64,000 nt of DNA from contig NZ_JACJPI010000010.1 of assembly GCF_014695975.1 (NCBI RefSeq), positions 1-64,000 on the forward strand, read 5' to 3'. Shown piece by piece: positions 25,862-64,000 of the stretch. The notes beneath the pieces are model-generated. The model ran no database searches. It had not been told where the DNA came from and saw only the letters and a program-made list of their open reading frames with translations. This DNA comes from Leptolyngbya sp. FACHB-321 (GTDB taxonomy: Bacteria > Cyanobacteriota > Cyanobacteriia > Leptolyngbyales > Leptolyngbyaceae). Position 1 is the stretch's first letter; every line of letters starts with the position of its first letter. Both the position numbers and the translations under genes were made by a program.

Positions 25862-25943
25862 AGATCAGTTGGTCTGAGTGATTAGCTGGTTGCTCAGACC
25901 AATTCTCTGTTGTTTTACACCATGTTTTTTAGGAGTTAGTTCA

Positions 25944-26789
25944 ATGCCATTTGTTAATGCTGGAGAAGCTTCAGAGGCGGGTCGTCATGCTCAGTCCCAC
26001 ATGCAAACGCTCATGGAAATGCTGTTTAAATTAGCTGAAGCAGCAGCTTTGCGGAACAAAGACGAGCCAGAGCCAAAAGCTGCTGACAAGACATTACAGG
26101 ACGCTGAACCTTCACTCTCAGACTCGCTAGAGTCGCATGTAGAGCGAGACGCTCTGCATGACTCGGTGTCTCGTTTGTCCGATGGCAAGGGCGAGGGACT
26201 GGTCTACCGGGCAGAAGGTTTCTCTGTCTTTCGTCACACCGAGACAATGGGCACCACTTACCAGGTGACCACTCCAGACGGTGAGCCGCTATTGACGTTT
26301 GAGCAAGTTGGTAATGACTTGTATTTAATTGAAGACCGTTTGTCACTGGAGCTGAAGCAGGACTTATTGGCAGCTGGTGAACGGTTGCAGACGAGTGACT
26401 TAGCGTCTGTGCTGCACCACCCAAACCCAAAAGTCGTGATGACCACTATGGGTGAAGCTGCCCCCGCAGGCACTCGTGCTGCCTGGGTGACTCAGCAAAT
26501 GTTGCAGGGTCGTAATTCGTTCACCCCCGACCACAGCAATTTCCAGTTTGACCGCGACACTTGTGGAAACCTCTCGGTCACAGATCGCACGAATCAGCAG
26601 GTCTTGTTGTATATGACTCCTAGCGGTCAGGTGACTTGCACGATGAACGTTGAACAACTGGAACAGTTTAAGCCTGCATTTAATAGGCTGCAGTCATACG
26701 AAACGCAACAAGCAGCAGCGAAAGGAGTGGGTCAGGCGGCCCAGTCATCGAAAGGATCGAAGACAGTTCAATTGGCTCTTGAACGTTAA
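25944..26789 (+). CDS. Plasmid protein sharing a module with the 889-aa protein
   Basis: The start is chosen at the ATG at 25944, with AGGAG (25931-25935) eight bases upstream; the longer frame from 25878 gives an odd Cys-rich hydrophobic head. The 281-aa product has a helical N-terminal third. A region YQVTTPDGEPLLTF then LYLIEDRLSLELKQDLLAAG follows, which parallels the 889-aa protein. The C-terminal part, FQFDRDTCGNLSVTDRTNQQ, parallels that protein's C-terminus (FNRSKEGNISVINKADN). The pair thus appears to come from one gene by duplication or to contain the same binding module. Function unknown. It is the last gene of the GAC-rich block. Confidence 0.6.
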   Translation: MPFVNAGEASEAGRHAQSHMQTLMEMLFKLAEAAALRNKDEPEPKAADKTLQDAEPSLSDSLESHVERDALHDSVSRLSDGKGEGLVYRAEGFSVFRHTETMGTTYQVTTPDGEPLLTFEQVGNDLYLIEDRLSLELKQDLLAAGERLQTSDLASVLHHPNPKVVMTTMGEAAPAGTRAAWVTQQMLQGRNSFTPDHSNFQFDRDTCGNLSVTDRTNQQVLLYMTPSGQVTCTMNVEQLEQFKPAFNRLQSYETQQAAAKGVGQAAQSSKGSKTVQLALER

Positions 26790-27707
26790 TCACTCATGCT
26801 TTGCCCATTCAGCCACCTATCGCCTCTGTGGTACCGTCTTTGAAAGCTGATCAATTGGGGCTTCGCTGGGTCTGTGACGTAAGCTGAGTGCTTCTTTCAG
26901 ATCCCGACCTATGGTCGTAGCAGTTTCAAAAACCGCTGCAAACGATCGTGGTTAGAGATTGGTTGCTGCTTCTACACCCCGACGATTGCTCGTTAGTCAT
27001 TGCTTGCTTTTTACCCTTGTTTAGTGCATTTGATTCCACAACTCAAGCAGCGCGATTGAGAGAGCCAAGATTGCTCAAGCTTCGGTTTGCATCAGCTAAC
27101 CCTAACAAAGCTGGAAAGCGGCTCGATCTAGCACTAGAAACAGGACAAATTCTTATGTACAGACACCTTTTCTTATGTACAAAGCATTTTTTTGACTGAG
27201 GTGATACCAGAAAGGTTGCGGCAACCCAGTGATGGCTGTTGCTCTAACTCGTTTTAGCTGTTCGAAGTTCGCGAAACACCGTTTGGGGATGTGCTCAAGC
27301 TAAGGCTTTCTTGTCCTGGTTGTCCAAAGACGCAGGCTGAGATTTGTTAGGTTCAAGCGACCGACCTTAAGGGTACGCTGCTCGCTAAGCGCTCTGTACA
27401 TAAGAATTTAAGTTTTGTACATAAGATGAAAACTCTGCTTAACGCTAGCTCAATCAGGAGCAGAAGCAACATTGAGGTACTTTATTCACCACTACATATA
27501 TCCTTACTTGGGGTTGGGTCGATATACGCTCAATTTAGTGCAGGAAAGGGCTAGAAGCCTGATTCTGGCGTAGATTTTTGACGCTTTTTCCCTTGCTTAG
27601 GGCTTGATCCAGAAGCTCAACGTAGCAAGCCTTTCCACCCCATGTTGCACCTTCTTAGTCTCATGTCGGCTCAATCTCTTGAGTCTTTCCCCTATACCCC
27701 ACACCCT
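26790..27707. other. Long spacer with convergent TTCTTATGTACA site pairs
   Basis: There is no gene I can support here. Two direct copies of TTCTTATGTACA lie at 27150-27161 and 27170-27181. Two inverted copies, TGTACATAAGA(A), lie at 27395-27406 and 27416-27426. The copies in each pair are spaced 20-21 bases, about two helical turns, and the pairs face each other over 213 bases. The same arrangement occurs at 61669-61931. The rest of the spacer, up to the end of the NACHT gene, shows nothing further. Confidence 0.6.
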
Positions 27708-30700
27708 TTATCCCTCCCCTTCTACAATCTCCCACAGTGCATCAATTCCGGCTCCTACACATTCCTTATCCTGATGCTGCCCAATCCACTGAACTAATGT
27801 AGGGGTAACCCAACCAACTTTTCTCCCTATGTTGCCTATTGCATCAGCCGCGCTGGAACGCACAAAAAGTGTTTCGTCTTTAAGCAAAGGTAATAGCGCT
27901 TGCACTGTTGGTTCTGAAGCAATACCTAAATTACCTAAAACTTTAGTTGCACTGTAACGTACACGAGAATGCTCACTTTTGAGTAATGCCAGAAGCTTTT
28001 GTGTTAGTGCTTCTGAAGCGATGCTTAACTTTCCCAGAGCTTCAATTGCGCAATAACGCACTCGATAGTGTTCACTGTTAAGCGATTCTAAAAGGCTTTG
28101 CACGATGACATCCGAGGTGGTACCCATCTTGCCTAAAGAACAAACTGCCCAAAACCGTACATCAGAATTCTCATCGTTGAGCAATAGAAGCAGTGCTTCT
28201 ATTACAGTAGGCGGCGCATTAGATAAACTTCCCAGCGAGTTAGCAGCCCTGAGACGTATAAAAGAATCTTCATCATTAAGTAAAGTCAGCAGTACTTGCA
28301 CTACATTGTCCGAAACATGACCTAAACTGACTAATGTATTTGCTGCTCCAAGACGTATATAGGAATTTTCATCATGAATTAGAATTAGAGTCGCTTGTAC
28401 TAACGAATCTGACGCAATACCCATCTTGCTTAAAGCATTGGCAGCTCTAAGAAAGACAAAAGAATCTTCATCCTTGAGCAATGCAAGCAATGCATTAATT
28501 ACAGGGTTTGTTACATAATCTAAATTCCTTAAAGCATTGGCAGCACTGAGGCATACGAAAGAATTTTCGTCATTAAGAAGTGCTAAAAGTGACTGCACTA
28601 TCGACTCTGATGCATTACCTAAGCTACCTAAATCTTTTGCTGCGCTAGCGCGCACAAGGTAATCTTCACTGTTGAGAGATGCCATTAAATTACTAACAAC
28701 AACTTCTACCTCTCCTAAATCAGCTTGATATTTCTGTAATCTTTTGTGATCAATTCGATCTACTCTATCCTTCAAACGCTGAAGCACTTCAGTTTCAAAG
28801 ACGCTTTCCTTTAAGCTGCAAAGAATCTGCAATACCTCTCCTCGAATTTTGTCTCCGATTTGCTTTGATTCAGCCAGCTCTAATGCAATCAACCCATTCA
28901 AAACTTTGCTGACGAGCACAGTATCGGTTGCTTGCAATCCCTTTGGATCTTCTGCCAAGCAACGACCTGCAAATAATAGATCGCGGTGGAGCCATTGTTC
29001 ATAGAGACTGTTGGCAGTGAGGACTTTACGGATGGCTCTCGCGGCTTTTTTGGGGCTTTGTTGGGCGATGAGGAGGAGCAGCACCTCGCGCCAGTGGGGG
29101 GCGTGGAGGTGTTGCTCAATGTGGGTAAGGACAATCTCGAAGTCGTCTTCGTTGTCTGCCTGGTAATTGATGTCTTGCGCGGCGAGGTATTCCTGAAAGG
29201 TTTTGTGGACGAAGGCGTAGCAGTCCTGTCCCTGTTCGTTGAGGAGTCCGGTTCTGTCGCGAATGAATTTCACGAATCGTTCCGCTTCTGCTTTTGCTTC
29301 GTAGTGCTGGAGTTGTTTGAGCGTTTTAATTTCCTGGGTCAGTTTTTGGATCAGTTCATCTTTGTCAATGAGCGTGCCGCCTTCGGTGTCGCCCGTCGTT
29401 CCCTGAGTATGAATCCAGTACGCTAGACTTTCCATTAATCGGCGCAGGTCATCCAGTTGTAGGTATTTGAGAACGGTCTGATTGCTCAGTTCTTTGTTGT
29501 CATCCCAAGCAGTGAGCAGCGTTTCCACCGCTTTGTCATAGAGTTTGTAGCGTTCGCGGGGCAGTCGTGCCTGATAGCGATGAATCAGGGCAATGATGGT
29601 CAGCAGTAAGGGGTTTCGCGCCAACAGCTTGATGCGATCCTGCTGATTCAGCGCTTTTTGCAGGCTTTCTTTGCGGCGTTGCGCCTCTGCTTTGTCTGGT
29701 ACGCGGCTAGTGTACCAGCGATCGCAAAACTCCTCAATCTTCCCATCATCAAAGGACTGCAACTCGTAGTGCGGAAACTCCTCCGTGCGGAAAAAGTCGC
29801 GCTTGTACCCGGCAGGACGCGACGTGATGATGGCGCGATTCTGCGGATACTGTCCCAGAAAGTTTTCGATGCACTGCACGAGATGGTAACGCTTCGATTC
29901 TTCTGCGACTTCGTCTAATCCATCCAGGAGGATGAGCGCCCGTCCATTGTTGAGCCAGTGTTCAAAGAAGCCCTTCGGCAACCGCTTGCAAGACATGGTG
30001 GTTTCTGCAAACTGTCGAGCATACTCAGGAATGGTGACAGCGGGAGTTCGCGCCCAATCGCGAATGCGAATCAAGATCGGCAGCGGCAATGCGTCTGCAT
30101 CGGTCTGCAACTCTTGTGTATCGCGATCAATGCCTTCTGCATTCGGATACATTTGTGTTCGATCTCGTTGCCTTTGAGATCGAACACAATCGGTTCCTTG
30201 CGTAAGTCGAACAATTTGAGCTTCATCGTAATCGGTTCCTTCTGCATGGCGATCAATTCCTTGTGTCGAGGCATCACTTGCTGGTGCGATCGCTCCTTGC
30301 CTCTCTGCCCCCCGTTGCTCTGCCAGCGTCACTGCAAAGAAACTCATGAGCGTTGTTTTTCCTGATCCGGGTGCACCCAACAGCACGACCCTTTTCTGAT
30401 GCTGGTTGAGGAGTTGCCGTGCCGAAAATTTTCGACCAGAGCGTTCTAGCTGTGCTCTCAAGCGTTGCTCCTGCAAAAGCTCCCTCTGCCGCCCCTGTTC
30501 CCCTGGCTCCCCTGGCGCTTCAAAGAACGATCGCTTAAACGCCCCCCGCGAGCGCCGCCCCACGTCCTCCTCCACATCGGGCATCACAAAGATCTGCGCC
30601 AAACGCTCAGCGCATTCTACATCCTGTCCCGGCACCGCGACGCCTGCGAACTTGACATCATCAAACCAGTTGGCTAATTGCTCTAGGTAATCGGACTTTG

Positions 30701-31127
30701 CCACCTGAAACCGAATCGCGGTAATAGCATTAAAGTAAGCATTGGCAAAGGTCTTCAGCCAGGGTTCTAGAGTGTCGTATGGAATGTCAAGAGTGCGATC
30801 GACGGCAATGTGTTTAGCAACCTGCACCACCATGGCGACATCAGGCGCACCATCTTGCTCCAACGGTTTCTGCAATTCGCGCTGTACTTCTGGATGTTCG
30901 AGCAGTGCGGCTAGAAACGTATCGGCATCTTTATCAGTACAGCGATAGAACACCGCATTGTTGACCTTTTGCCTACGCTCAAAGGCACCCGATTTCTGCA
31001 AGCCAACGTTCAGCGCTTTTTCAAGCTCAGTAGGATTTAATTTGTGTTTTACGGCAGTGGCGATCGCGCTTGCCACTTTTGGCAATGCTGCTTTGACCAA
31101 TCCACCTGTGATCGACTCAAATACCAT
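27708..31127 (-). CDS. NACHT-HEAT STAND NTPase
   Basis: A 1139-aa protein of the signal-transduction NTPase class. Domain order: an N-terminal helical region of about 230 residues with no known family; a NACHT domain with Walker A GAPGSGKTT (about 249-257) and the NACHT Walker B ILLDGLDE (about 397-405); a helical wing region with FVHKTFQEYLAAQ (typical of NACHT proteins); then about nine HEAT/PBS-type repeats (about 830-1125) of 31 residues with pattern LLALLNDENSFVRxxAAxAL. Such proteins sense a ligand with the repeats and in several bacteria act in phage defence. The N-terminal effector, if any, is not identifiable. A low-complexity insertion of roughly 65 residues lies in the NACHT domain just after Walker A. 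Confidence 0.85.
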   Translation of the reverse strand: MVFESITGGLVKAALPKVASAIATAVKHKLNPTELEKALNVGLQKSGAFERRQKVNNAVFYRCTDKDADTFLAALLEHPEVQRELQKPLEQDGAPDVAMVVQVAKHIAVDRTLDIPYDTLEPWLKTFANAYFNAITAIRFQVAKSDYLEQLANWFDDVKFAGVAVPGQDVECAERLAQIFVMPDVEEDVGRRSRGAFKRSFFEAPGEPGEQGRQRELLQEQRLRAQLERSGRKFSARQLLNQHQKRVVLLGAPGSGKTTLMSFFAVTLAEQRGAERQGAIAPASDASTQGIDRHAEGTDYDEAQIVRLTQGTDCVRSQRQRDRTQMYPNAEGIDRDTQELQTDADALPLPILIRIRDWARTPAVTIPEYARQFAETTMSCKRLPKGFFEHWLNNGRALILLDGLDEVAEESKRYHLVQCIENFLGQYPQNRAIITSRPAGYKRDFFRTEEFPHYELQSFDDGKIEEFCDRWYTSRVPDKAEAQRRKESLQKALNQQDRIKLLARNPLLLTIIALIHRYQARLPRERYKLYDKAVETLLTAWDDNKELSNQTVLKYLQLDDLRRLMESLAYWIHTQGTTGDTEGGTLIDKDELIQKLTQEIKTLKQLQHYEAKAEAERFVKFIRDRTGLLNEQGQDCYAFVHKTFQEYLAAQDINYQADNEDDFEIVLTHIEQHLHAPHWREVLLLLIAQQSPKKAARAIRKVLTANSLYEQWLHRDLLFAGRCLAEDPKGLQATDTVLVSKVLNGLIALELAESKQIGDKIRGEVLQILCSLKESVFETEVLQRLKDRVDRIDHKRLQKYQADLGEVEVVVSNLMASLNSEDYLVRASAAKDLGSLGNASESIVQSLLALLNDENSFVCLSAANALRNLDYVTNPVINALLALLKDEDSFVFLRAANALSKMGIASDSLVQATLILIHDENSYIRLGAANTLVSLGHVSDNVVQVLLTLLNDEDSFIRLRAANSLGSLSNAPPTVIEALLLLLNDENSDVRFWAVCSLGKMGTTSDVIVQSLLESLNSEHYRVRYCAIEALGKLSIASEALTQKLLALLKSEHSRVRYSATKVLGNLGIASEPTVQALLPLLKDETLFVRSSAADAIGNIGRKVGWVTPTLVQWIGQHQDKECVGAGIDALWEIVEGEG
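30155..30187. repeat. Perfect 12-bp palindrome inside the NACHT coding region
   Basis: GTGTTCGATCTC (30155-30166) is perfectly inverted at 30176-30187 around a nine-base loop. Nearby blocks (30060-30270) carry further partial copies with ATCGGTTCCTT or ATCAATGCCTT cores. The coding frame passes through it, making a low-complexity insertion of Asp/Gln/Glu-rich peptide just after Walker A. It looks like a short palindromic repeat element that has lodged in the gene in frame. Confidence 0.65.
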
Positions 31128-36306: not shown

Positions 36307-37968
36307 GTGCATTACCACCCTAAATCTATGGCATCAGTACTGCTTTGCGATAAGCACCTCCATTGGGCGACAAAGCAATCCCAATGCACATTCAGGTGGT
36401 TAGGTTCCTTAGAGACAGTTTCTTGGGACATTGCGGGAATTCAAACAAAGCTGAATACGATCAAGAAGCCTTGCTATATTGTTCGACAGAATGGGGACAT
36501 TGGAGTAACCCATGAAGGCACAATTCAAGAAACTGATTCACATCAAGCCATCGAAATTCTAACTGCTGTATCACCTATCCATACACATCAACTGGGTGAT
36601 TCACGGTTCTGTTCCGCTCATGGTACTAAATACGCCTACATGGCTGGTGCCATGGCGAACGGTATTGCCTCAGAAGAACTTGTGATTGCTCTAGGTAAGA
36701 CTGGAATCCTCAGCTCTTTTGGCGCTGGAGGCTTGGTGCCCGATCGCATCGAAGCAGCCATCCATCGAATTCAACAGGCATTACCGTCAGGACCTTATGC
36801 CTTCAACCTAATTCATAGCCCGAGTGAAGCCGCGATCGAACGCCGTACTGTTGAACTCTATATCAAGCATGGCATCAAAACAATTGAAGCATCTGCATTT
36901 CTGGGTCTGACTCCCAGCGTTGTACATTATCGGGTCAGCGGTTTGCAGTTAAGTTCCGCTGGGCACATTGAGATCAACCACAAAATCATTGCGAAAGTGT
37001 CGCGGGCAGAGGTTGCGACCAAGTTTATGAGTCCGGCTCCTACGAAAATTTTGCAGCAATTATTAGAACAGGGGCTCATTTCAGAACAACAGGCAAAACT
37101 GGCTGAAACCGTGCCCATGGCAGACGATATTACTGTGGAAGGGGATTCCGGTGGGCATACTGATAATCGTCCGATAGTTGCCTTATTGCCAACCATTTTG
37201 CAACTAAGACACGAGATTCAGGAGAAATACCGATATGAAACGCCTATTCGCGTGGGCGCTGCGGGTGGGATTGGCACGCCTCACTCAGTTCTAGCCGCGT
37301 TTATGATGGGAGCAGCATACGTCGTCACGGGCTCGGTGAACCAAGCTTGCGTGGAGGCAGGAACCTCCGCACAGGTGAAGCAGCTACTTGCCCAAGCCAG
37401 TATTACGGATATGGCGATGGCACCTGCCGCCGACATGTTTGAGATGGGTGTGAGACTTCAAGTCTTGAAACGGGGCAGTTTCTTTCCCATACGGGCGCAA
37501 AAGCTGTTTGCTTATTACCAGAAATATGAAGCCATTGAAGAGATTCCTTTAAACGAACGGCAACAACTGGAACAACAGATTTTCAGGAAAGACTTGGATA
37601 CTGTTTGGCAGGAAACTGTTGCTTATTTCCAACAGCGCGATCCCGATCAAATTGCCCGATCGATCGATCATCCCAAACGTAAAATGGCGCTAATTTTTCG
37701 ATCGTATCTAGGGCAGGCTTCCCGTTGGGCGATCACGGGAGATGAATCCCGGGAAGCAGACTATCAAATCTGGTGTGGTCCGACGATGGGGACCTTTAAT
37801 ACTTGGGTAAAAGGCACTTATCTGGAACAGCCAGAGAATCGTCGAGTTGTCGATGTGGCAACTCATTTGATGCAGGGAGCCGCAATTCTATACCGCTTGC
37901 AAATGCTGAAATTGCAAGGGTTAGAACTGGCACCTCACTACTTCCAGTATTTACCAGAACCCTTCTAG
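36307..37968 (+). CDS. PfaD-like enoyl reductase (PUFA/polyketide synthase component)
   Basis: A 553-aa flavoenzyme of the nitronate monooxygenase/PfaD family. The TIM-barrel motifs are plain: MAGAMANGIASEELVIALGK near the start and FNLIHSP. The FMN-site loop GDSGGHTDNRP is at residues 279-289, and RVGAAGGIGTPHSVLAAFMM follows. In PUFA synthases PfaD is the separate enoyl reductase that saturates or isomerises the growing chain using NADPH and FMN. The C-terminal extension (WCGPTMGTFNTWVKGTYLEQ) is characteristic of PfaD-like proteins. The start is either GTG at 36307 or ATG at 36328; neither has a good ribosome site. The next synthase gene starts 11 bases after its stop, so the two are one operon. 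Confidence 0.85.
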   Translation: MHYHPKSMASVLLCDKHLHWATKQSQCTFRWLGSLETVSWDIAGIQTKLNTIKKPCYIVRQNGDIGVTHEGTIQETDSHQAIEILTAVSPIHTHQLGDSRFCSAHGTKYAYMAGAMANGIASEELVIALGKTGILSSFGAGGLVPDRIEAAIHRIQQALPSGPYAFNLIHSPSEAAIERRTVELYIKHGIKTIEASAFLGLTPSVVHYRVSGLQLSSAGHIEINHKIIAKVSRAEVATKFMSPAPTKILQQLLEQGLISEQQAKLAETVPMADDITVEGDSGGHTDNRPIVALLPTILQLRHEIQEKYRYETPIRVGAAGGIGTPHSVLAAFMMGAAYVVTGSVNQACVEAGTSAQVKQLLAQASITDMAMAPAADMFEMGVRLQVLKRGSFFPIRAQKLFAYYQKYEAIEEIPLNERQQLEQQIFRKDLDTVWQETVAYFQQRDPDQIARSIDHPKRKMALIFRSYLGQASRWAITGDESREADYQIWCGPTMGTFNTWVKGTYLEQPENRRVVDVATHLMQGAAILYRLQMLKLQGLELAPHYFQYLPEPF

Positions 37969-37979
37969 AGGGATGCCCT

Positions 37980-40900
37980 ATGAATCGAGGTGTCGAGTGT
38001 TCCTTTCCCTCGCCGGTTCTACAACGACTACTGCAACTGCACCAAGACATTAATCAATTACAAACACAGATCGAACAAGGTATTGGACATCAGTCTATGC
38101 AACCGGAACAATCATCAGAAATGGAAGTTTTGAGTACGAAAATGAACCAAACACCGATCGCGATTGTTGGTATGGCAAGTCTTTTCCCGCAATCGAAGGA
38201 CTTGCAAGCATACTGGACTAATATTGTTCAAAAAGCTGATTGCATTACAGACGTTCCTGCTTCTCGCTGGAATATTGATGATTACTATGATCCAGACCCA
38301 ACTGCACCTGACAAAACCTATTGCAAACGGGGTGGCTTTCTTCCTGACATTGACTTTAACCCAATGGAATTTGGCTTGCCGCCGAATATTTTAGAAGTCA
38401 CCGATATTGCCCAAATTCTTTCTCTGGTGGTTGCTAAGCAAGCCCTGAAAGATGCAGGCTGTGACCAGGCAACGGAAGCGGTGCGCGATCGCATCGGTGT
38501 GATTTTGGGAGTTGGCGGTGGGCAGAAGCTAATCACTCCCTTAACGGCACGGTTGCAGTCTCCCATTCTGGAAAAAGTTTTGATCAGCAGTGGCTTATCG
38601 CAAGAAGAAACTCAAACCATTGTAGAAAAAGTCAAGCTGGCCTACATTGGCTGGGAAGAAAATTCCTTTCCTGGCATGTTAGGAAATGTGATTGCTGGAC
38701 GAATTGCTAATCGTTTAGATCTTGGTGGCATTAATTGCGTGGTTGATGCGGCCTGTGCAGGGTCACTCAGCGCCTTGCAGATGGCACTCGATCAACTCTC
38801 CAGTGGACGGAGCGACATGATGATTACGGGCGGGGTTGATGCTGACAACTCTCCCTTCATGTATCTCTGCTTTAGTAAAACCCCCGCCTTTACTAAACAG
38901 GATCAAATGCGCCCGTTTGATGCAGCATCCGATGGCATGCTCGTCGGTGAAGGGATTGGCATGATGGTGCTGAAGCGGTTGGCAGATGCAGAGCGGGATG
39001 GCGATCGCATCTATGCCGTCATTAAAGGCATGGGCGCGTCGAGCGATGGCAAATATAAAAGTATTTATGCACCACGTCCCTCCGGACAGGCAAAAGCCTT
39101 GCGTTGTGCCTATGAGAATGCGGACTGTGACCCCAGTAGTGTGCGGTTAATCGAAGCGCACGGTACGGGGACTGCAGCCGGAGATCCCGTTGAGTTTGCG
39201 GCTCTACAAGAGGTATTGAGTGAGGCGAACGCAGAGGTACAGGCGATCGCTTTAGGGAGTGTCAAGTCACAAATTGGTCATACCAAAGCTGCTTCTGGAG
39301 CTGCCGGCCTAATTAAAGCTGCATTGTCTCTGCACCACAAAATCTTACCGCCCACGCTGAATGTCACTCAGCCCAATCCCAAACTCAATATCGAACAATC
39401 GCCCTTCTACTTGAACACTGAGCCACGCCCCTGGATGCGAAGTGAAGCGGACCCACCCAGACGAGCCGGGGTTAGTTCCTTTGGGTTTGGTGGCACCAAT
39501 TTTCACGTAGTGCTGGAAGAATACACAGGCAAACAACCGCAAGCTTATCGGTTACATCAAGTGCCTGCAATTCTCCTATTTGCAGCCAATGATCCTGCTC
39601 AATTACTGACCCAATGTGAAACAGTCTGGACAAAATGGCAAACTGATGCAGCGGAGAAACACTACCAGGAATGGGTCCTCGCCAGTCGGGTAATCGCGAT
39701 TCCCGCCACATCTGCCCGTCTAGGCTTTGTTGCAGCTAGCTTGAGTGAAGCCAGACAACTGTTACAAACCGCGATTCAGACTCTGAAACATCAGATGGCG
39801 GTTGATTTTTGGCAGCATCCTCAAGGGATTTGTTATCGCAAGGCGGGCATGGATACGGCAGATAAAGTGGTGGCGCTATTTCCTGGTCAAGGATCGCAAT
39901 ATCTCAATATGGGACGAGAGTTAGCGCTCAATTTCCCCGCTGTCCAACAGAGTTTTGCCACTATGGATTTGTTGTTCCAACGGGATCAGCTATCTCCCAT
40001 TTCTCAGGTTGTCTATCCGCGCCCTGTCTTTACCACTGCTCAACAGCAACAGCAGACCGAGTCCTTGCAGAAAACAGAACATGCCCAACCTGCGATTGGG
40101 GCATTAAGCATGGGACTGTACAAAATCTTGCAACAAGCTGGCTTTCAGGCGGATTTTGTCGCTGGACATAGTTTTGGCGAAGTCACAGCCCTATGGGCAG
40201 CAGGTGCCTTAAGTGATGCGGATTACTGCTTCCTAGTGAAAGCTCGCGGTCAAGCATTGGCAGCACCCGCACATCCCAATTTTGATGCCGGTGCCATGTT
40301 ATCCATCACGGGCGATTTAGAAACTATTCAAAATGTGGCCAAAAACTTTCCCAATGTACTGATTGCGAATTGGAATTCCAATCAACAAATTGTCTTAGCT
40401 GGAGCCACGCCAGAAATTGCCAACATTGAGCAACGGTTTACCGAGTTTGGCTGTTCCGTCACCCGCCTACCTGTTTCTGCGGCATTCCATACGCCGTTGG
40501 TGAGTCACGCCTATCAACGGTTTGCTCAAGCACTGCGAATTGTCAACTTTAACCGTCCGAGTGTACCTGTTTACTCCAATGTGACTGCCGAGCCTTATCC
40601 AAATAATGCAACCGAGATCGGACAAACGCTGGCTTCTCAATTACTCAATCCCGTACACTTCAAGCAGGAGATCGAAAAGATTTATGCCGCTGGTGGTCGC
40701 ATTTTTGTGGAGATTGGTCCTAGAAGCGTTTTGACTCACCTGACGCAAAATATTCTGGAGGGTCAACCCCATCTGGCGATCGCATTGAATCCCAGCCGCA
40801 CCGGAGATAGTGATCGTCAGTTCCGCACCGCAGTAATGCAGCTGCAAGTTGCTGGATTGCCCCTGAAAGATTTCGACCCCTACGGATTGGAACCAGAACC

Positions 40901-45158: not shown

Positions 45159-45179
45159 CGTTCTACCCAGAGAAAAATT

Positions 45180-46013
45180 ATGAGACCCTTGTTTTCCAAA
45201 CGCACGCTATCCGACAGCGATGATCTCACACTCGTCGTCGAGAGACTTCGCCTCAGAGCCTATGCCAGCTTCTTGGTCGTTGTGCTTGTCGGCATTCTAC
45301 TGACGAATTTATTCGCCAATATTGACTTGAATGACAGCCTACTCATGCAAGTGTTTGGGTTCAACAATATCTGTGTGTATTTCGACTACCCACCGTCTAC
45401 TTACGTCCTTCCCTTTTTATGGGCGATTACGCTCGTCTTGATGCTCCAGTACATGGTGGCGCACTGGCTACAAATGAATGCACAAGTTGAGCAAGGCACC
45501 TTAAATCGGAAGCTATATAGAATCTTGACCCGCATGAAATTATTCGAGGCATTCACAGTGGTGAGCTTCTCGACGATCTTTGCGGTTAGTCCTGAGGGGT
45601 GGAACCACACGTTATTCATCCATACAGCGCCATTCTTTCTCTTGCAGGTCGGTCTTGTTTCGCAGGCTATATCCAACACGCTTCACGGCACAAAATCAGG
45701 TTACTGGCGTCGGCTAGGGCTTCCTGCTTGGTTCAACAGGGCCGCGATCATGTATTGCATCCTTTTCAGCATCATTGTTTTTTTCAAGATTCTCTCAGCA
45801 ACGAACGCAATGGCAGGCAGCCCATGGTGGCATCAAACTGACATGTTGAAGAGGGTTGCCCAAGGCTTTGATCGCATGTTCTTTTTCCTCGCGGTCGTTG
45901 TGCCAATGGTCAAGATGGCGTACTTAGCGTACTACAGAAGCGAAAAGCTGGAAGTCGTACACCTAACGGTAAATTCAATCAAACAAGCATTGTTGCGTAA
46001 ATCAATTCAGTAA
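45180..46013 (+). CDS. Six-helix membrane protein inside the synthase operon
   Basis: A 277-aa integral membrane protein with six hydrophobic segments (about residues 27-50, 75-97, 118-136, 145-165, 190-208 and 230-250). The C-terminal tail is basic. I do not recognise the family. It has no transporter or acyltransferase motif that I can see; a few His and Asp residues lie in loops (HWLQMNAQ, HTLFIHTAP). It starts 21 bases after the PfaA-like stop, on the same strand, so it is likely co-transcribed. A role in handling the lipid product at the membrane is inference from position. It could also be a host gene inserted by chance. Confidence 0.65.
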   Translation: MRPLFSKRTLSDSDDLTLVVERLRLRAYASFLVVVLVGILLTNLFANIDLNDSLLMQVFGFNNICVYFDYPPSTYVLPFLWAITLVLMLQYMVAHWLQMNAQVEQGTLNRKLYRILTRMKLFEAFTVVSFSTIFAVSPEGWNHTLFIHTAPFFLLQVGLVSQAISNTLHGTKSGYWRRLGLPAWFNRAAIMYCILFSIIVFFKILSATNAMAGSPWWHQTDMLKRVAQGFDRMFFFLAVVVPMVKMAYLAYYRSEKLEVVHLTVNSIKQALLRKSIQ

Positions 46014-46094
46014 GATCAAGGGTTTCAGCGATTTAAAACCGATAAAAATCAAAATTGTGGCTTCTTAAACGTCTGAAATCTTTATCTAGTAGCG

Positions 46095-46285
46095 AGCATT
46101 CATGCAACAACGTTGATCAAACGTGAGATCAATCATGTGCTTGGTGTGAAGATGGGGTTACTCAACACGAACTAAATCGAATTCTTAACAATAAGTTGAT
46201 GAACAATGTTCAGTTTTCAATTGAAGAAGTAGATTCTTTTAGTGTTAATGAGAAATCGGGAAAGTTTCAGCTTGTCGTCGTTTAA
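46095..46285 (+). pseudogene. C-terminal remnant of a possible adenylate-forming ligase
   Basis: From 46095 the frame reads SIHATTLIKREINHVLGVKM, and after a frame change at about 46150 it continues DGVTQHELNRILNNKLMNNV then QFSIEEVDSFSVNEKSGKFQ LVVV and a stop at 46283-46285. The closing pattern (N/D-E-K-S-G-K-F with a preceding VxxVD) resembles the C-terminal end of adenylate-forming enzymes of the CapK/PaaK type. No more than about 60 residues remain, so it is a relic. It lies between the membrane-protein gene and the PfaC-like gene, which suggests that an extra enzyme of the pathway was once here and has been lost. The family call is tentative. Confidence 0.35.
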
Positions 46286-46312
46286 AAATCTTTTTGCAAC
46301 TGCCAAATAGCT

Positions 46313-57037: not shown

Positions 57038-58138
57038 TTAAGTACAATCACTCAAGTTCGATTTCAGCTTTTCAGGATTGATTTGAAATTGAATGCTCGG
57101 TGTTTTTCTTTTCCCAGATAGCTCTTGCGCACCAAGAACATACCCCTCTTGCTGCAATTCCTCAACAGTGCGCCAGAAAATTTGATTATTTCGTGAGGAA
57201 TTACTTCCTAGCAAATCAAGATTTTTGAACAAGTATTGTTTAGAAATCGCTAGATACTGACCCTCTCGCGGGGAATCCCACTTGAGTCGGCTTGCAAGAT
57301 AAATCAATAGTTTGGTTCTATAGTCATTTTTAGTATTACTACCAAGTTTTTGAGTCACTTCGACATCGCCAGCAAACAAGACGTAATCACCAGTACGGCT
57401 CGGTCCTTCAAAGAACTCTAAAGAGACTGTGTAAGAATCAGCTAATTCATAAGTGTAGTCAGCAGCTTTTACGAGATCAAAGTCGCGTGAGAGGTTTTCG
57501 ATCTTGTAGCTTCGGATACGCAAGATACTCTTGATAATTACCTCTGCTCCAATTTTATTGCCTTCCCTAAGAGACTTCGCTAAAACTAATTCGACTCGAT
57601 GCAGCGCCACAAGGTCACGGTTTAATTGCGAGCGCACTTTGGCATGAAAACTACCACCCTTGGCACGTGAATAACCGAGGCTTTCCAGTAAGTCATTTGA
57701 GCGGAAAGTCACTACTGGGCCATTGTTTTGCTCAGCTGCGAGCTTGTAGAGATACAGTACAATCCCAACCTGCCGAGGGTTGAGAAAAGTCAAAAGTGCC
57801 ATGAAGAGGCGCTGAATCCGACGATCCTGTATTTTTTCAAGCCCTTTACCAATGCCTTGAGCGACCAGAGCCGGAAGGTCAAGGCTATCATACTGCTGCT
57901 TTAGTTCTTCCCACTCGTCAATCGTCAGATCCTCAAGTGGAACCCGCCGCGTCACTGCAACTTCACCAGCATCATTCGCATCTGCCTCAACCCGCATCTC
58001 TAGATAGTACCCATCCCCATCGGAACGTAGAATGGGCAATCGGACATCTGGATTATTGACTGATGCTGCAGCTCTAGGCAGGACCATGAGCAACTGTCCA
58101 TCGACTGGGAAAGTCAGATCTTTTTCACTCAAAGTCAT
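57038..58138 (-). CDS. Plasmid replication initiator (Rep)
   Basis: A 366-aa protein encoded divergently from an iteron array that starts 80 bases upstream of its ATG, the usual layout for iteron-binding initiators. Residues about 95-210 and 215-350 look like two winged-helix-type regions (RIQRLFMALLTFLNPRQVG, then SNDLLESLGYSRAKGGSFHA; then YLASRLKWDSPREGQYLAIS, YVLGAQEL). I infer initiator function from location and fold-like pattern; no catalytic motif is expected for this class. It differs in detail from the RepA/Rep_3 proteins I know. The start has no Shine-Dalgarno sequence on the minus strand. Confidence 0.7.
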   Translation of the reverse strand: MTLSEKDLTFPVDGQLLMVLPRAAASVNNPDVRLPILRSDGDGYYLEMRVEADANDAGEVAVTRRVPLEDLTIDEWEELKQQYDSLDLPALVAQGIGKGLEKIQDRRIQRLFMALLTFLNPRQVGIVLYLYKLAAEQNNGPVVTFRSNDLLESLGYSRAKGGSFHAKVRSQLNRDLVALHRVELVLAKSLREGNKIGAEVIIKSILRIRSYKIENLSRDFDLVKAADYTYELADSYTVSLEFFEGPSRTGDYVLFAGDVEVTQKLGSNTKNDYRTKLLIYLASRLKWDSPREGQYLAISKQYLFKNLDLLGSNSSRNNQIFWRTVEELQQEGYVLGAQELSGKRKTPSIQFQINPEKLKSNLSDCT

Positions 58139-58219: not shown

Positions 58220-58532
58220 TTCTATCACTCCGGCGTATGTTTTTGCTCTCATGTTCTATCACTCCCACGTATAGATTGGTCTATCACGCCGACGTATTGT
58301 TTAAGCAAGATCTATCACTCCGGCGTACAAAAGGGTCTATCACTCTCGCGTATAAATCTGGGCGGGGCTACCTATGCAAACCTACTTTCTGTAGTTACTA
58401 AGAGAACTGTTCTATCACTCTCGCGTATCAATTGGTCTATCACACCGAAGGAGACAGCAGCTCTGTCCTATCACTCCCGCGTATAGATAGCTCTATCACT
58501 CCTGCGTATTGCTGTTCTATCACTCCCGCGTA
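58220..58532. repeat. Ten iterons, probable replication origin
   Basis: Ten direct copies of a 17-18-base unit, consensus T(C/T)CTATCACTCCCGCGTA, all in one orientation. They start at about 58220, 58254, 58279, 58310, 58335, 58410, 58435 (degenerate at its 3' half), 58465, 58490 and 58515. Spacings are mostly 25 or 31, with one gap of 75. They lie directly upstream of the divergent rep gene. This is the pattern of iteron-controlled origins, where Rep binds each copy to start and limit replication. Confidence 0.9.
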
Positions 58533-58884
58533 AAGTGCTGGTATGAATAAATTCAGCACGTTTTGTGAAGAGAGTTTCGGTGTTTAATGAATGGCATCTA
58601 CCTCCAATGCGTCTGTTTCTAGAGGTAGCAAAGAAGGTTAAGTTCAGTTGCGTGGAGGTTTACATGCCATGATCCATGGCTGCACCTAAATCATATAGAA
58701 GTGAATTTGGTTTAATCCGCCAAGGAATATCGTTTTAAAGTCACGAAGAAACCGGGACAGAGCCTCGCCAAAGTCTCAATTATCCCGGCTTCCTGCGCTT
58801 TAGTTGAAGAAACAGCCATTTCTTCAGCTAAGTTTGTGTATCTGCATCATAGCAGTTCTGATGATTTACCAAGCAATAGTGTTT

Positions 58885-59033: not shown

Positions 59034-61010
59034 ATGACCATTGCTCAATCAACTACCTGTTTTCGCTACATCCAGGATTGGAGTGATCACTTCCTGCGAC
59101 TCTTTCCGCATCGTTTCGATTTCATTTGGGCAGAACATTCAAGTCCGAGTGCTGAAGTTGAGTGGAAAACTGAAAGTCGTCATCCCTTAAGTGATCGTCT
59201 CATCCAACAAGGTGCTTATCTCTTTGGTGTTCGCTTTGGTGCAGAGACAAGCTACTGCTTGCTTGACGTTGACACTGGCAGCGCCTATCACCCTAACAAT
59301 GATCCATTTGCCCTTTCCCGTATTGTTGCGGCACTAGAACCATTGGGACTAGTAAGTCCTGTAGCTTGCACGTCTAGTTACAGCGGTGGTTTACATCTCT
59401 ACTTTCCCTTTCAGTACCCTCAGAGTTCTTGGCAATTGGCGATCGCGCTTGCCTGTCTACTCGAAAATGCTGGCTTCAAACTCCAACCGGGACAACTCGA
59501 AGTCTTTCCCAATCCCAAACCCTACTCAACTGATAACGTTCCTAGTCTCTTCAACGCCCATAGACTTCCACTTCAAGCAGGCTCCTACTTACTCAATGAA
59601 GCATTTGAGCCAATCTGGAGTGATACCTGCACATTCACTAGCCAATGGCAGCTGGCACAACAGCGGAATGATCTTGCTAGCAGAACACTCAAACAAATCC
59701 TGAAGCAAGCTAAACGCAAGCATTTTGGCGTTTCAGGCAAAGCAGAGAAGTTTGTCAATGACTTGAACGCTGAGATTGAACTTGGTTGGACTGGCAGTGG
59801 TCAAACCAATCGGCTCTTAGGGCGCATTACGATGCGAGCCTACATTTTTCACCATGTGCTTTCGGGTGGAGCACCCTTAGTAGGCACGGCACTGGTGAGT
59901 GAGATTGTCGAAACGGCACAAGCACTCCCAGGTTATAGCGAGTGGTGCCGTCATCAACATGAAATTACACACCGTGCTGAGGAATGGGCACACTGCATTG
60001 AGGGGAGCCACTACTTCCACTTTGGCGATCAACTGAAAAAACCAAAGCCAGATTTTCAAGATCCAGTACTCACAGCCGCGATCGAGCAAGCTCCGTCTTG
60101 GAATCAACGCCGAGCGGCAGCAACCAGAGACCTCATCCGCCGAGCCATAGCAACTTTACTAGAGCAAAATGCTCTGCCAGTGAGACCTACCGCCCGCTTT
60201 CAAGCACTATTGAAATTTGGCATCGGTGGAGCATCCCTGTATCGACACCGTGACCTATGGCATCCCAGTCATTTTGGACTTGACTCAAACCAAACGGTAG
60301 CAGATGTCTTTACCGTGCCTGTGGAAAACCCCCCAGACCCCCCAAGCAGCAAAACGGACAGCCAGTTAGATTGCTTTGATGAAGCATCTAACTGGCTCAG
60401 TCCTCCAAGCTTATTATCTGACAATGATGGTAATAAGCCTTCTGGCAAGGCTTTGAGCGATCTTTGCACCATGCTTACTTCTGTAGTGGACAGTAATCAC
60501 TCGGTAGAACCTGACGTCTATCAGGTCATTGCAGAGGCACAGCAAGTTGTACGAGATGCTCAGCCACTTTCACTGAACGACAGCGGACAACAAGAACCCT
60601 TTCAAGCAGTGGCTCGAAGTGCTCGAGCACAGCAGCTTAAAGCTGAGGCAGCTAACCAAAGGCAAAGAACCCGGATGCAGGCATTCTTAAACTCGGGCGA
60701 TCCTATTTTGGTGGCAGAGGCACTGGCATGGATACAAGTGAATCCAGGTGTCTTGGAGGTTAGTCAGCTACAGCTTGATCTGTTAACCAAACACCAGTCA
60801 GAAGCGACATTCATCGAGCGCTCCGTCTTGCTGGCTGCGGTCGAATCACAAAGGCAGCGCTTGACTTGGTCAGAGCAACAAGTAGTGCATGATCTCCAGC
60901 AGCGTTTCGGCAAGAGCAGTTTAGCTACGCTGAGTGATCTGGAGTTACAGCACTGGTTAAAGCTGTTGAAGCAGACACCAATTGATCAACGAAGGCGAAC
61001 GGTTGATTAA
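59034..61010 (+). CDS. AEP-superfamily primase-like plasmid protein
   Basis: A 658-aa protein. Three motifs of archaeo-eukaryotic primases are in order: LLDVD (Asp78 and Asp80), SGGLHLYF (His121) and QLEVFPNP (Glu156). So the N-terminal 200 residues should be a primase/polymerase fold. Residues about 230-400 are helical and could be a PriCT-type domain. The C-terminal part is helical and Gln-rich, with no P-loop, so no helicase is fused. Such proteins are common on cyanobacterial plasmids, where they probably help replication or establishment. Placed about 500 bases beyond the iterons, it fits a replication helper. The start is decided by GGAG at 59025-59028, inside a hairpin. Confidence 0.65.
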   Translation: MTIAQSTTCFRYIQDWSDHFLRLFPHRFDFIWAEHSSPSAEVEWKTESRHPLSDRLIQQGAYLFGVRFGAETSYCLLDVDTGSAYHPNNDPFALSRIVAALEPLGLVSPVACTSSYSGGLHLYFPFQYPQSSWQLAIALACLLENAGFKLQPGQLEVFPNPKPYSTDNVPSLFNAHRLPLQAGSYLLNEAFEPIWSDTCTFTSQWQLAQQRNDLASRTLKQILKQAKRKHFGVSGKAEKFVNDLNAEIELGWTGSGQTNRLLGRITMRAYIFHHVLSGGAPLVGTALVSEIVETAQALPGYSEWCRHQHEITHRAEEWAHCIEGSHYFHFGDQLKKPKPDFQDPVLTAAIEQAPSWNQRRAAATRDLIRRAIATLLEQNALPVRPTARFQALLKFGIGGASLYRHRDLWHPSHFGLDSNQTVADVFTVPVENPPDPPSSKTDSQLDCFDEASNWLSPPSLLSDNDGNKPSGKALSDLCTMLTSVVDSNHSVEPDVYQVIAEAQQVVRDAQPLSLNDSGQQEPFQAVARSARAQQLKAEAANQRQRTRMQAFLNSGDPILVAEALAWIQVNPGVLEVSQLQLDLLTKHQSEATFIERSVLLAAVESQRQRLTWSEQQVVHDLQQRFGKSSLATLSDLELQHWLKLLKQTPIDQRRRTVD

Positions 61011-61116
61011 AGGCAACGGTCTAATGCCTTTTCCTGCGGGCTGGGGGGAGGCATCCAGCTGTTGACAGAAGCACCGCACTTTTGTCCTGGCAAAACGACT
61101 TTTTACCGAAGAAACT

Positions 61117-61458: not shown

Positions 61459-62041
61459 AGTCAGCACCCCGCACTGAAGTGACGGGGCTTCGTGCCTCTA
61501 ACGACAGTTAGCTGACCAGCCTCAGTCTTTACTGACTACGTTTTCAGGGTCATGACACCGATAGATGCTTTCCAGTCTGTTGCTCTGTCGTCAGCCGTCA
61601 AACAGCTTTACGAGGGGTAAGGCAGTGCGGCTGACCGAACAAGCGACTGCCCTTAGTCGAGTAATTAGTTCTTATGTACAAACCGTTGTTTCTTATGTAA
61701 GTACCGTTGCAGAAGTGGAACAGTAGGAGTACATCACTTTGTACATAAGATTTTGTTGTTTGTACATAAGAAACGTGTAAGCAGCTTTGGCGACAGCACT
61801 TGACGTGGAAACCCTCAAAACAATGATGAATGCTGCTAATTTCTTATGTACAAAGGGTCTTTTTCTTATGTACAGAGGGTCTTTTCTTGCAGTCAACTTG
61901 TACATAAGATTTTGTTTTTTGTACATAAGAAAATTTGTCACTCACGCAGCGCCAAGCCACCGCCAAGCTCACAAATTAGTTTTGGCAACCATTCCCTGCT
62001 CCCGGAGACTGCTGGCAAAACTCTACAGTGGCTCAACCTAA
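61459..62041. other. Spacer with eight TTCTTATGTACA sites
   Basis: No gene is supported; frames here are made by the repeats. A hairpin at 61467-61487 (CCCCG-CACT paired with AGTGA-CGGGG) lies just after the DUF6788-like stop and may end that transcript. It also resembles hairpins at IS200/IS605-type ends. The array of convergent sites is described in a separate entry. The relaxase gene ends at 62042 on the other strand. Confidence 0.45.
61669..61931. repeat. Two convergent units of paired TTCTTATGTACA sites
   Basis: Forward copies are at 61669-61680, 61690-61700 (weaker), 61841-61852 and 61863-61874. Reverse copies are at 61740-61750, 61761-61772, 61899-61909 and 61920-61931. Each direct pair is spaced 21 or 22 bases, about two helical turns, and a forward pair always precedes a reverse pair. 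This gives two complete units here; a third stands at 27150-27426. They look like binding sites for a protein that contacts pairs. Confidence 0.75.
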
Positions 62042-63652
62042 TTACATTTTTCCGTCCTGTGCTCTCCGTGTTTGAGCCCGCCGCGCTTCTCGCTGCCGTT
62101 TCTCCAATGCCTGTTGTATTTGCACCACGTTTTGCGTCAACGTCGTCTTCACGGTATGCCACGGGTATGTTCGCAACGCCCGCTGCACCCTGGGCGACTG
62201 CTGCAAAAGCCCCACGATCGCCTCCGTCTTATACCCCTGCTGACATGCTAACGCTGTCACCGCAGACTCAATTTGCTGTACGTCCGTCAGCCCTCGCTGT
62301 TGGGTCTGTGCTGACAACACTTCCCACCGTTCCTGGTCACTCGCATTCTGTAAGCCCACCCAAACCGCTCGTTGCTCCAGCGCTTCAATGTGGTTTTGTG
62401 TCCACTGGAGCATAGCCTTAAGGCTCTCTGCTTGCACTTGCTCATTCGTGCCTACTGACCAACCATCTCTTAAGCCGTCTTCTTGCTCTGCGTCAGCGAT
62501 CGCCACTGGTGGCAGGTTTAAGGTACCCTCACTTAGTACGACTGCGGCGGCTTCTGGGGCTAAGGCTGATTCTGTTACAGCATGAGCGTTACTTGGCTCT
62601 ATGCCCTGCTGCGGTTTAGGCTCAATGAATGCTGTAACAGAAACCGTTTCTACTGCAATTGATTCTGTTACAGCATGTTTGACTAAGCAATCTCGTTCCG
62701 GTGGCACGACCGCAAAAGCTCTTCCTGTGTCGGTTTCAGTCGCTTCTGATTCTGTTACAGAATGATCTGAGCCTGCGTTTAACTCAGTTTGTGTTGGCTC
62801 AGTTGCTACGTCTATAGGTAGCGCTGCTAATCGTGCAGCATCTACCTGAGCCTCTACCGTTACCTCGTCTGCCCCAAAGCTGATCCCAAAGGTGGACTCT
62901 AAGCCCCGTTTCGTGTAACGCTTGCCCAACTTAGTGGCTGAAAAGGTGCGCACTTTATTGTTTTCTATTGCTAGCTGGTAGAGCAGTGCCCAACTCCCAT
63001 CGTCTCTAGGTGTGGCTATGAGCGTCACTCCTGCCTGCTGCAGCTTATTTTGTAAGTCCTCCAGCGTCTCTGTCCCTACGACACAACGTTCAATGCTCTC
63101 CTGTATGACCCGTCGGGGTATGGGTTTTCCCGTCTCACGAGACTGCCTAACTTCCGCCACACTGGGCGCTTTGACGTCCACCTCCCAACTGTTCTTGAGC
63201 CTCGGTAGGTCAAACTCTTCCTCCAGCGTGCGCATAGCAACTTCGGTGCGGCGTTTCTGGAAGCTGTCGTTGACCACTTGCCCGTCCAGCCGGATACGAT
63301 TTTCAATTAAATGAAGATGGCAGTCATCAGTGTCGTTGTGTTTGGCTAACACAAACTGGTTCATGACTGGATCAAAACCCATGAGATCCATGAACCGGTG
63401 CGCGATCGCTCGTAGTTGAGGCGGTTCTAACTCAGAGGAAAAGGCAATGGAGAAGTGCGCCACATAGTTTTCAGTGTGCCGTTTTGCCCCATTGCGGTGA
63501 TGGGGTTGAAAGGCGACCTCAAACTCGCGTGCCATCACGGCTGGTGTGTCTGCTGCGCAATTGGTGTCCAGCAGTTCTGCTTTGTCTTTCGTCAGCACAT
63601 AGTTGAGACAGCCGTAGGCACTTTTGCCCACCGTCACTTTAGCAATTGGCAT
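62042..63652 (-). CDS. MOBP/VirD2-like relaxase
   Basis: The start is put at the ATG ending at 63652 (536 aa, MPIAKVTVGKSAYGCLNYVL); the frame extends to a TTG at 63787, but that part looks like a pentapeptide-repeat remnant. Residues about 1-200 form the relaxase: a Tyr-containing start (SAYGCLNY), then HNDTDDCHLHLIENRI with His105, Asp107, His112, His114 and Asn118. These are the metal-binding and catalytic histidine motif III of MOBP-class enzymes. It should nick the plasmid at oriT, stay on the 5' end and be taken up by the coupling protein. The C-terminal half is acidic, with HAVTES-type repeats, then a helical Gln-rich part. The oriT itself is not identified. Confidence 0.8.
   Translation of the reverse strand: MPIAKVTVGKSAYGCLNYVLTKDKAELLDTNCAADTPAVMAREFEVAFQPHHRNGAKRHTENYVAHFSIAFSSELEPPQLRAIAHRFMDLMGFDPVMNQFVLAKHNDTDDCHLHLIENRIRLDGQVVNDSFQKRRTEVAMRTLEEEFDLPRLKNSWEVDVKAPSVAEVRQSRETGKPIPRRVIQESIERCVVGTETLEDLQNKLQQAGVTLIATPRDDGSWALLYQLAIENNKVRTFSATKLGKRYTKRGLESTFGISFGADEVTVEAQVDAARLAALPIDVATEPTQTELNAGSDHSVTESEATETDTGRAFAVVPPERDCLVKHAVTESIAVETVSVTAFIEPKPQQGIEPSNAHAVTESALAPEAAAVVLSEGTLNLPPVAIADAEQEDGLRDGWSVGTNEQVQAESLKAMLQWTQNHIEALEQRAVWVGLQNASDQERWEVLSAQTQQRGLTDVQQIESAVTALACQQGYKTEAIVGLLQQSPRVQRALRTYPWHTVKTTLTQNVVQIQQALEKRQREARRAQTRRAQDGKM
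62568..62764. repeat. Three direct GATTCTGTTACAGCATG repeats within the relaxase gene
   Basis: Direct copies lie at 62568-62584, 62661-62677 and 62748-62764 (the last with one mismatch), and a related inverted copy, GCTGTAACAGAAAC, at 62631-62644. On the coding strand they make the HAVTES-type repeats of the linker. Related TTCTGTTACA motifs lie upstream of the transfer operon (1029-1089). Confidence 0.65.
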
Positions 63653-64000
63653 GGGAGGAGGAAGCGGAAGGAGGGAGCGTGTCCCTTCTAGTGTTCCCTC
63701 CAATGGTGGGGTGATTGTAAGGTCAACACGTTTAAGACTGGCATCTTGAAGGTCAACACCGCTGAAGTTGGCTTGGCTAGAGTCCAACAGTCCCTGAGCA
63801 GGACTTATGTTTCGTTACCCGATTGCTTTTAAAGTCCTTTTCACCTCAGGAGACAAACTCTGTTTTATATACGGCTGTCTAGTGCCTGGCAGCTTTGTTT
63901 GATTCCGTATAAAAAGCGCCAGTAGGGTCATAGTTGGCTAGATAGCTTGTGGTAATTTTTATGCGGTTGCATTTAAAACAGCCAGCATGAAGGTGGCAGT
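63653..64000. other. Region upstream of the relaxase; pentapeptide-repeat remnant
   Basis: On the minus strand 63653-63787 encodes SQANFSGVDLQDASLKRVDL in the relaxase frame, two to three A(D/N)LXX-type pentapeptide units. A stop lies upstream at about 63815-63817, and a TTG is the only start. It may be a scrap of a pentapeptide-repeat gene. The remaining 200 bases hold nothing I can name; the window ends here. Confidence 0.4.

Follow-up and report, generated by a model that had tools for sequence, protein, structure and literature searches.

The locus at positions 27150 to 27427 of the window (the whole stretch analysed here, 64 kb at the start of a 96-kb contig) raises the question of which protein would recognize a 12-mer that occurs there in doubled and opposed copies. 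Two forward copies of TTCTTATGTACA, both exact, lie at 27150..27161 and 27170..27181 on the plus strand and face two copies on the minus strand, the first exact (27395..27406) and the second, ATCTTATGTACA at 27416..27427, with one mismatch. The preliminary description had reported this arrangement, and its two forward and two reverse copies, 20 and 21 bp apart within the pairs, are confirmed. The start positions that it gave are also correct, though the unit ends at 27427 rather than 27426 and the copy at 27416 is not exact. The inner sites of this first unit start 225 bp apart, which leaves a gap of 213 bp. Unit 1 is contained in the interval (26790..27707) where two convergent reading frames, 25878-26789 (+) and 27708-31127 (-), end, and no convincing gene start was found near it. 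Similarity of this interval to the compared loci is confined to the arms of the unit (30-46 bp). The adjoining reading frame 27708-31127 (-) encodes a NACHT protein with an NNH2 N-terminus and HEAT repeats (STAND-type, with a possible role in defence).

The same plan had been said to recur 34 kb away, and it does, but the second locus consists of two units (61669-61772 and 61841-61931) rather than one. Unit 2 comprises an exact forward site (61669..61680), a forward site with two mismatches (TTCTTATGTAAG, 61690..61701), a reverse site with one mismatch (ATCTTATGTACA, 61740..61751) and an exact reverse site (61761..61772). Unit 3 has two exact forward sites (61841..61852 and 61863..61874), followed by a reverse site with one mismatch (ATCTTATGTACA, 61899..61910) and an exact reverse site (61920..61931). 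The window holds 8 exact 12-mers versus about 0.008 expected (both strands, 64 kb, equal base frequencies). When up to 3 mismatches are allowed there is no excess in the window (49 found versus 45.2 expected), and therefore weight is given only to copies that are near-exact and clustered. The genome's 8 exact 12-mers are all located on the plasmid contig C2, which makes up 96,074 of 6,715,002 bases, and positions 64001-96074 of C2 have no further copy with 2 or fewer mismatches. Several putative operators are present per replicon, with three units at two loci in the window and up to 6 exact pairs on one contig in relatives.

The contig is very likely to be a cyanobacterial plasmid, conjugative or mobilisable, since it encodes a TrwB/TraG-like coupling protein, a TrbI-like protein (below the cut-off) and a MobA/VirD2-like relaxase (62042..63787, minus strand; Pfam 79.3 bits, cut-off 24.6). 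Elsewhere in the window, a gene with PfaD/FabD-like domains is followed by two very large frames of 2451 and 2335 aa (36307-53320), and together they probably form a synthase cluster for polyunsaturated fatty acids or polyketides. The second locus of 12-mers ends a run of genes in the order 366-aa gene, divergent 658-aa replication-related gene, DUF6788 gene and units. The 366-aa gene (57038..58138, minus strand) is a conserved plasmid gene with similarity to loci L009, L027 and L061; its product has no Pfam family above the cut-off and is 92-95% identical among three cyanobacteria (the window's protein is 93% identical to L009 and 92-93% to the G038 copy, L027/L061), and the neighbouring replication-related gene is 66-74% identical. 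The 658-aa gene (59034..61010, plus strand) has matches on 66 plasmid records, and two of the 20 matches listed are named 'replication-related protein'; in a relative (L001), a match to Prim-Pol stays under the cut-off (E 0.017). The divergent gap between these two genes contains three copies of a 24-25 bp tandem repeat (58463..58539), unrelated to the 12-mer, which are probable replication iterons, and the gap around them is matched in L009 and L061 at 69-70%.

The third gene of this run encodes a 113-aa DUF6788 protein (PF20586; 61117..61458, plus strand; Pfam 32.5 bits, cut-off 27.2), which is proposed here as the reader of the sites. A HEARO RNA of the IsrB type (61460..61672, plus strand; 107.8 bits, cut-off 83), the only RNA family above the cut-off in the window, occupies the space between the DUF6788 stop codon and unit 2. 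The ATGA at the DUF6788 stop is on one side of it and the first site of unit 2 on the other; of 12 loci searched, L033 alone has it, and L033 is the window's stretch itself. Immediately upstream of the DUF6788 start codon lies a degenerate site (TTCTTCGGTAAA, 61102..61113, minus strand) whose 3 mismatches are within chance for the window as a whole; it may be a decayed operator, and many relatives have an intact reverse site at this position.

The reading favoured here, with a probability of roughly two in three, is that the DUF6788 protein encoded by the plasmid itself binds the 12-mers. It would be a site-specific DNA-binding autoregulator for which the unit at 27150 is a remote site. Protein and sites are connected here through linkage and co-variation, and a gene and a site in tight linkage would be co-inherited anyway. 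Across 13 genomes, the window's own included, 65 of 68 exact 12-mers share a contig with a close DUF6788 gene, the figures being 41 of 43 in 8 genomes chosen for a close DUF6788 gene and 24 of 25 in 5 others chosen for their sites. A DUF6788 match is present in 15 of 42 genomes of the family, and the direct-pair pattern in 5 of the 42, all 5 of which have a close DUF6788 gene. Eight of the ten genes with E below 1e-30 adjoin a clear unit; the others are L040, which has an in-frame stop and two degenerate half-sites, and L036, with a unit 1.6 kb away. The loci L010 and L003 were found through their sites and had no DUF6788 gene in the initial stretch, yet each has one, at 63-64% identity, on the same contig, 15.2 and 5.3 kb, respectively, from the units first seen. 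Exact sites also occur close to these two genes. The prediction was borne out twice, in a test that could have failed. L017 behaves like L010 and L003, but the presence of the gene on its contig was known beforehand (L018).

Since the window's DUF6788 protein has a match in only 3 of 386 genomes of a phylum-wide sample, its own genome included, the close form of the protein is rare. More distant cyanobacterial DUF6788 genes have single convergent pairs (CTTGTGTAA..TTACACAAG), mostly directly before the start codon. A scan of the 42 genomes by site alone placed 49 of 58 exact convergent CTTATGTA..TACATAAG or CTTGTGTA..TACACAAG pairs on contigs with a DUF6788 match, which amount to about 1% of the DNA (sum of listed lengths), and a control pattern read backwards occurred 4 times in the same genomes. 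The 9 exceptional pairs are in G006, G007, G021 (contig C97), G022 (two), G023 (contig C10), G030 and G034 (two). Agreement at the level of contigs is loose, as some pairs are tens to over 100 kb from the DUF6788 gene. The very distant relatives L044, L046, L047 and L055 have, as judged by eye, inverted repeats of the CTTGTAC..GTACAAG type on the upstream side, which are perhaps a third form of the site.

The preliminary description took the regular spacing to mean that one protein binds paired sites on the same face of the DNA. Spacing is indeed conserved in related loci. A set of 17 loci of the window's clade contains 129 clustered sites, selected for their similarity to the 12-mer, and among them 47 same-strand spacings of at most 30 bp. 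These all measure 18-22 bp, with a mean of 20.3 bp, or two helical turns; the mean leaves out three same-strand neighbours at 40, 76 and 80 bp. A single protein on one face fits this mean, and DUF6788 is the candidate for it. Convergence is the rule within units, in that 36 neighbouring sites run forward then reverse (18-72 bp) and the 6 that run reverse then forward (68-80 bp) all fall between units. Unit 1 is absent from the 36 because clustering at 80 bp split it. Site positions 3-5 and 9 are invariant in the 129 sites, partly through the way the sites were selected. Doubled units, with two forward sites before two reverse ones, recur in relatives alongside single forward..reverse pairs. 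When genome contigs were scanned for two direct copies, 20 stretches were obtained, of which 7 are cyanobacterial (6 genomes, five of them with DUF6788; L008 matches a G023 contig by sequence). The 13 others have no DUF6788 motif in the stretch examined and are taken as other systems. One stretch on a Flavobacterium contig (L013, 4587-5025) has two pairs with 21-bp spacing, both in one orientation and with a mismatch in one copy; it lacks a DUF6788 motif and is another system or a chance occurrence.

Iterons and handcuffing sites of theta plasmids are direct repeats spaced by about 20 bp near replication genes, and the 20-21 bp direct spacing of the 12-mers resembles theirs. The sites cluster near replication genes, and the 658-aa gene is found in 9 site-bearing loci (the window, L001, L009, L018, L061-L064 and L067), so that it is almost as closely linked to the sites as DUF6788; by resemblance it is also present in the G-form locus L151. 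Several of the 13 non-cyanobacterial stretches, moreover, are tandem arrays, some of them on contigs of less than 5 kb. These features would suit binding by a replication protein, whether the 658-aa, the 366-aa or an HTH-ended one, with the sites acting as iterons or in handcuffing. That reading is nevertheless unlikely. The 658-aa gene is accompanied by one of several divergent initiator-like genes, which vary between site-bearing plasmids (366-aa; 646-680-aa HTH-ended; 486-aa and 695-aa types that are only 27-31% alike), whereas the 12-mer does not change. L065 and L066 have DUF6788 and none of these genes, which is a weak point given contigs of 10.5 and 15.9 kb, and the annotated haloarchaeal regions with a pair name no such gene. 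The units are also convergent and dispersed rather than tandem, and it is a different repeat, that of 24-25 bp, which lies between the replication genes.

The plasmids that carry DUF6788 genes come from cyanobacteria, haloarchaea, a methanogen and other bacteria, and convergent pairs accompany many of these genes. An exact convergent pair is present within 250 bp of 39 of 65 DUF6788 genes, upstream in 34 of them, while shuffled flanks (200 per gene) contain a pair in at most 4% of cases even with 1 mismatch per half. By group, the count is 23 of 30 closer cyanobacterial genes, 0 of 5 very distant cyanobacterial genes, 12 of 16 other plasmid genes and 4 of 14 viral-contig genes. The 26 genes with no exact pair within 250 bp include all 5 very distant cyanobacterial genes, 10 of the 14 from viral contigs and all 4 from other bacterial plasmids. 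The window's own gene counts as a miss because of the HEARO insert; L058 was missed owing to a start set too far upstream and L054 owing to a pair at the edge of the 250 bp, and in both the pair is visible. The 65 genes leave out L079 (fused in a 623-aa frame), L089 (overlapping L090), L095 (protein identical to L043), L033, L069, L072 and L073 (the same genes as the window, L001, L018 and L009), second places in some records, the plasmid matches H34, H37-H39, H45 and H48, and H31 and H32, which are duplicates under other names.

All 11 haloarchaeal plasmid genes fetched have a CTTATGTAA- or CTTGTGTAA-type pair before the start codon, in a set drawn from the best place of each of 12 records listed and containing several near-copies. 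The arms are at about -50 and -14 in most of them, and L133 has the G form. In Methanothermobacter tenebrarum a TCTTATGTAACA..TGTTACATAAGA pair is downstream of the DUF6788 gene. Pairs of the CTTATGTAA or CTTGTGTAA type with perfect arms of 13-17 bp precede the start codon in 4 of 16 viral-contig DUF6788 genes. The plasmid genes of Tunicatimonas, Chlorohelix, Rhodothermus and Myxococcus have no pair, and in the first three a single half-site occurs within 250 bp. A scan of viral contigs by site alone yielded 34 stretches (35 places), several of them near-copies, and a recognisable DUF6788 in 4 stretches (5 places), all 4 of which had already been found through the protein; the other 30 stretches with a palindrome have no recognisable DUF6788 in the stretch examined. 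Extended symmetrical TTCTTATGTAAC..GTTACATAAGAA palindromes were seen on viral contigs L103, L104, L110, L113, L117-L120, L124-L126 and L130, imperfect in L126, and the stretches examined there hold no recognisable DUF6788 gene.

The form of the site follows the clade of the protein. On a tree of 41 proteins, picked for having a readable site, the three site forms require 3 changes, compared with a mean of 11.0 after shuffling, and none of 200 shuffles was as low. Linked inheritance may explain part of this co-variation.

The frequent position of the pair in the 50-60 bp before a start codon, with the reverse arm near the ribosome-binding region, would also suit inverted repeats that act as RNA hairpins, either translational operators or terminators, instead of as DNA sites. 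Such a role is scarcely probable for an arrangement that includes same-strand pairs at 18-22 bp, the 213-nt gap of unit 1 and copies far from gene starts. The core letters themselves are conserved (positions 3-5 and 9, partly a selection effect), and many pairs are flanked by T-rich sequence 5' and A-rich sequence 3', the opposite of what an intrinsic terminator would show. The signal for a promoter -10 element within the pairs fell short of significance (P 0.065).

DUF6788 often adjoins replication or partition genes. Units, DUF6788, ParA and ParB follow one another in L063 and L066, as well as in L065 with more distant ParA/ParB, and the G-form locus L151 has an HTH-ended gene, pairs, DUF6788 and ParA-like and ParB-like genes. 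A CyRepA1-family gene is nearby on pLBX of L. boryana. Outside cyanobacteria, a replication or partition gene is named in 6 of 16 regions (ParA in L094, L138 and L140; RepL in L094; Orc1/Cdc6 in L136 and L143; replication initiator A in L134), and the other 10 name none. The gene orders of L063, L066, L065 and L151 could be explained if the sites were parS-like centromeres of ParA/ParB and DUF6788 a mere neighbour. This is very improbable, considering that eight ParA/ParB proteins of relatives have no match on C2, the window's contig (tblastn, E 0.01), and that ParB proteins with the same first 25 residues stand beside both A-form (L062, L064) and G-form (L151) sites. Of the roles that the preliminary description listed for such a protein, partition, copy control and silencing are compatible with many of the neighbours, namely replication genes and ParA/ParB, and sequence does not settle the choice among the three.

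The same list included transposon ends, a suggestion that is not supported, as flanking duplications of 4 bp or more were found in none of 16 units. It is highly unlikely that the units are transposon ends or a non-autonomous mobile palindrome (MITE-like or REP-like) spread by DUF6788 or another protein. They do resemble mobile elements in being dispersed, inverted and mostly between reading frames, some of them between convergent frames, and DUF6788 genes are often flanked by them on both sides. The units at 61.7-61.9 kb are 70-79% alike to those of L010 and L035/L062 over 71-105 bp, the reverse arms of units 2 and 3 are 97% alike over 35 bp, and the L003 and L010 units have common flanks. 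The mean length of flanking duplications, however, is 1.44 versus 1.31 in mismatched controls. Unit 1 is alike to the searched loci at its arms only, the gap between forward and reverse sites ranges from 6 to 213 bp, copies are few per replicon and the 113-aa protein matches no transposase or nuclease family above the cut-off.

The favoured reading, binding by DUF6788, may be set against what can be said of the protein. Pfam gives no function for PF20586. For the 113-aa protein only DUF6788 exceeds the Pfam cut-off, NCBIfam has no match at E 0.01, and no KorA, KfrA, ParB, transposase or nuclease family is matched above the Pfam cut-off. Residues C71, C76, H86, P88, Y89, W90, Y91 and Y104 are invariant in both a 26-row and an 18-row alignment, and the shared core of Cys/His and HGPYWY, defined from the alignments made here and not from the Pfam text, is present in the 61117-61458 protein. 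The predicted structure (pLDDT 82.6, pTM 0.48) has helices at 7-15 and 19-42 and four strands, and the conserved residues fall in the C-terminal beta sheet. Foldseek gave no match at E <=0.001 and the best VIA-align Z was 4.4; in the absence of a significant fold match, the fold alone does not say DNA binding. A search of open-licence PMC text for DUF6788 and the 12-mer found no paper, nor did a search with combined terms, and among the matches listed for shorter core strings the papers look unrelated by title.

If DUF6788 does bind the sites, a dimer would span a convergent forward/reverse pair, formed through the helices and with each sheet reading one half-site. The doubled arms of the window's clade, two helical turns apart, would then take two dimers. 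A pair before its own start codon would allow the protein to repress its own gene, and such autorepression is most likely because that is where the pair mostly lies in the family. In the window itself autorepression is doubtful, as the site before the DUF6788 start appears decayed, with 3 mismatches. Units elsewhere on the replicon, that at 27150 among them, would serve as remote operators or as anchoring sites. With their help DUF6788 could couple plasmid expression or folding to the replication/partition locus, extending control or bridging DNA.

The unit at 27150 is accordingly read as a remote binding site of the predicted binder and not as an operator of the adjoining gene. Remote pairs on other replicons follow no single rule, being placed between convergent frames in L147 and L149 and before genes in L145 and L154, and no consistent gene neighbour of remote units was found. 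Helicase and NERD genes, some of them defence-like, adjoin remote pairs in four loci tested, from which no pattern is claimed.

According to PMC11790492, KorA and KorB of the IncP-1 plasmids (RK2) are plasmid-encoded regulators with several operators on the backbone that act at a distance, and the reach of KorB is up to 1.5 kb. DUF6788, the binding of which is inferred, would resemble them in being a plasmid-encoded regulator with several operators on the plasmid backbone and action at a distance. It differs in having no KorA or ParB family match, in its doubled 12-mers and in a unit 34 kb from its gene, and no co-repressor for it was found. KfrA of the IncU plasmid RA3, as presented in PMC7783346, is an oligomerising DNA-binding protein that binds a repetitive operator as a dimer, aids plasmid maintenance and is an alpha-helical coiled coil. 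Both are plasmid proteins with DNA binding to a repetitive operator, predicted in the case of DUF6788, but in DUF6788 two helices are predicted at the N-terminus and the conserved residues belong to a C-terminal sheet, and the protein lacks a KfrA family match.

A broader interpretation, which is tentative and rather doubtful, is that DUF6788 is a site-specific DNA-binding family of bacteria, archaea and mobile elements, not homologous to ParB, KorA or KfrA, with a readable protein-to-site code (CTTRTGTA, and CTTGTAC in a distant branch). In Leptolyngbya-type plasmids the protein would, by this interpretation, bridge doubled convergent sites tens of kilobases apart and so organize or partition the plasmid. 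PMC10899382 describes what is known about replication proteins in cyanobacterial plasmids as limited, and an accessory replicon protein would therefore be new ground there. The candidate sites described here are a first proposed DNA target, with a testable role, for PF20586, a protein family of no known function. A small protein with a clade-dependent site would also offer a compact system for the evolution of DNA specificity, and DUF6788 may serve as an orthogonal repressor for cyanobacterial vectors.
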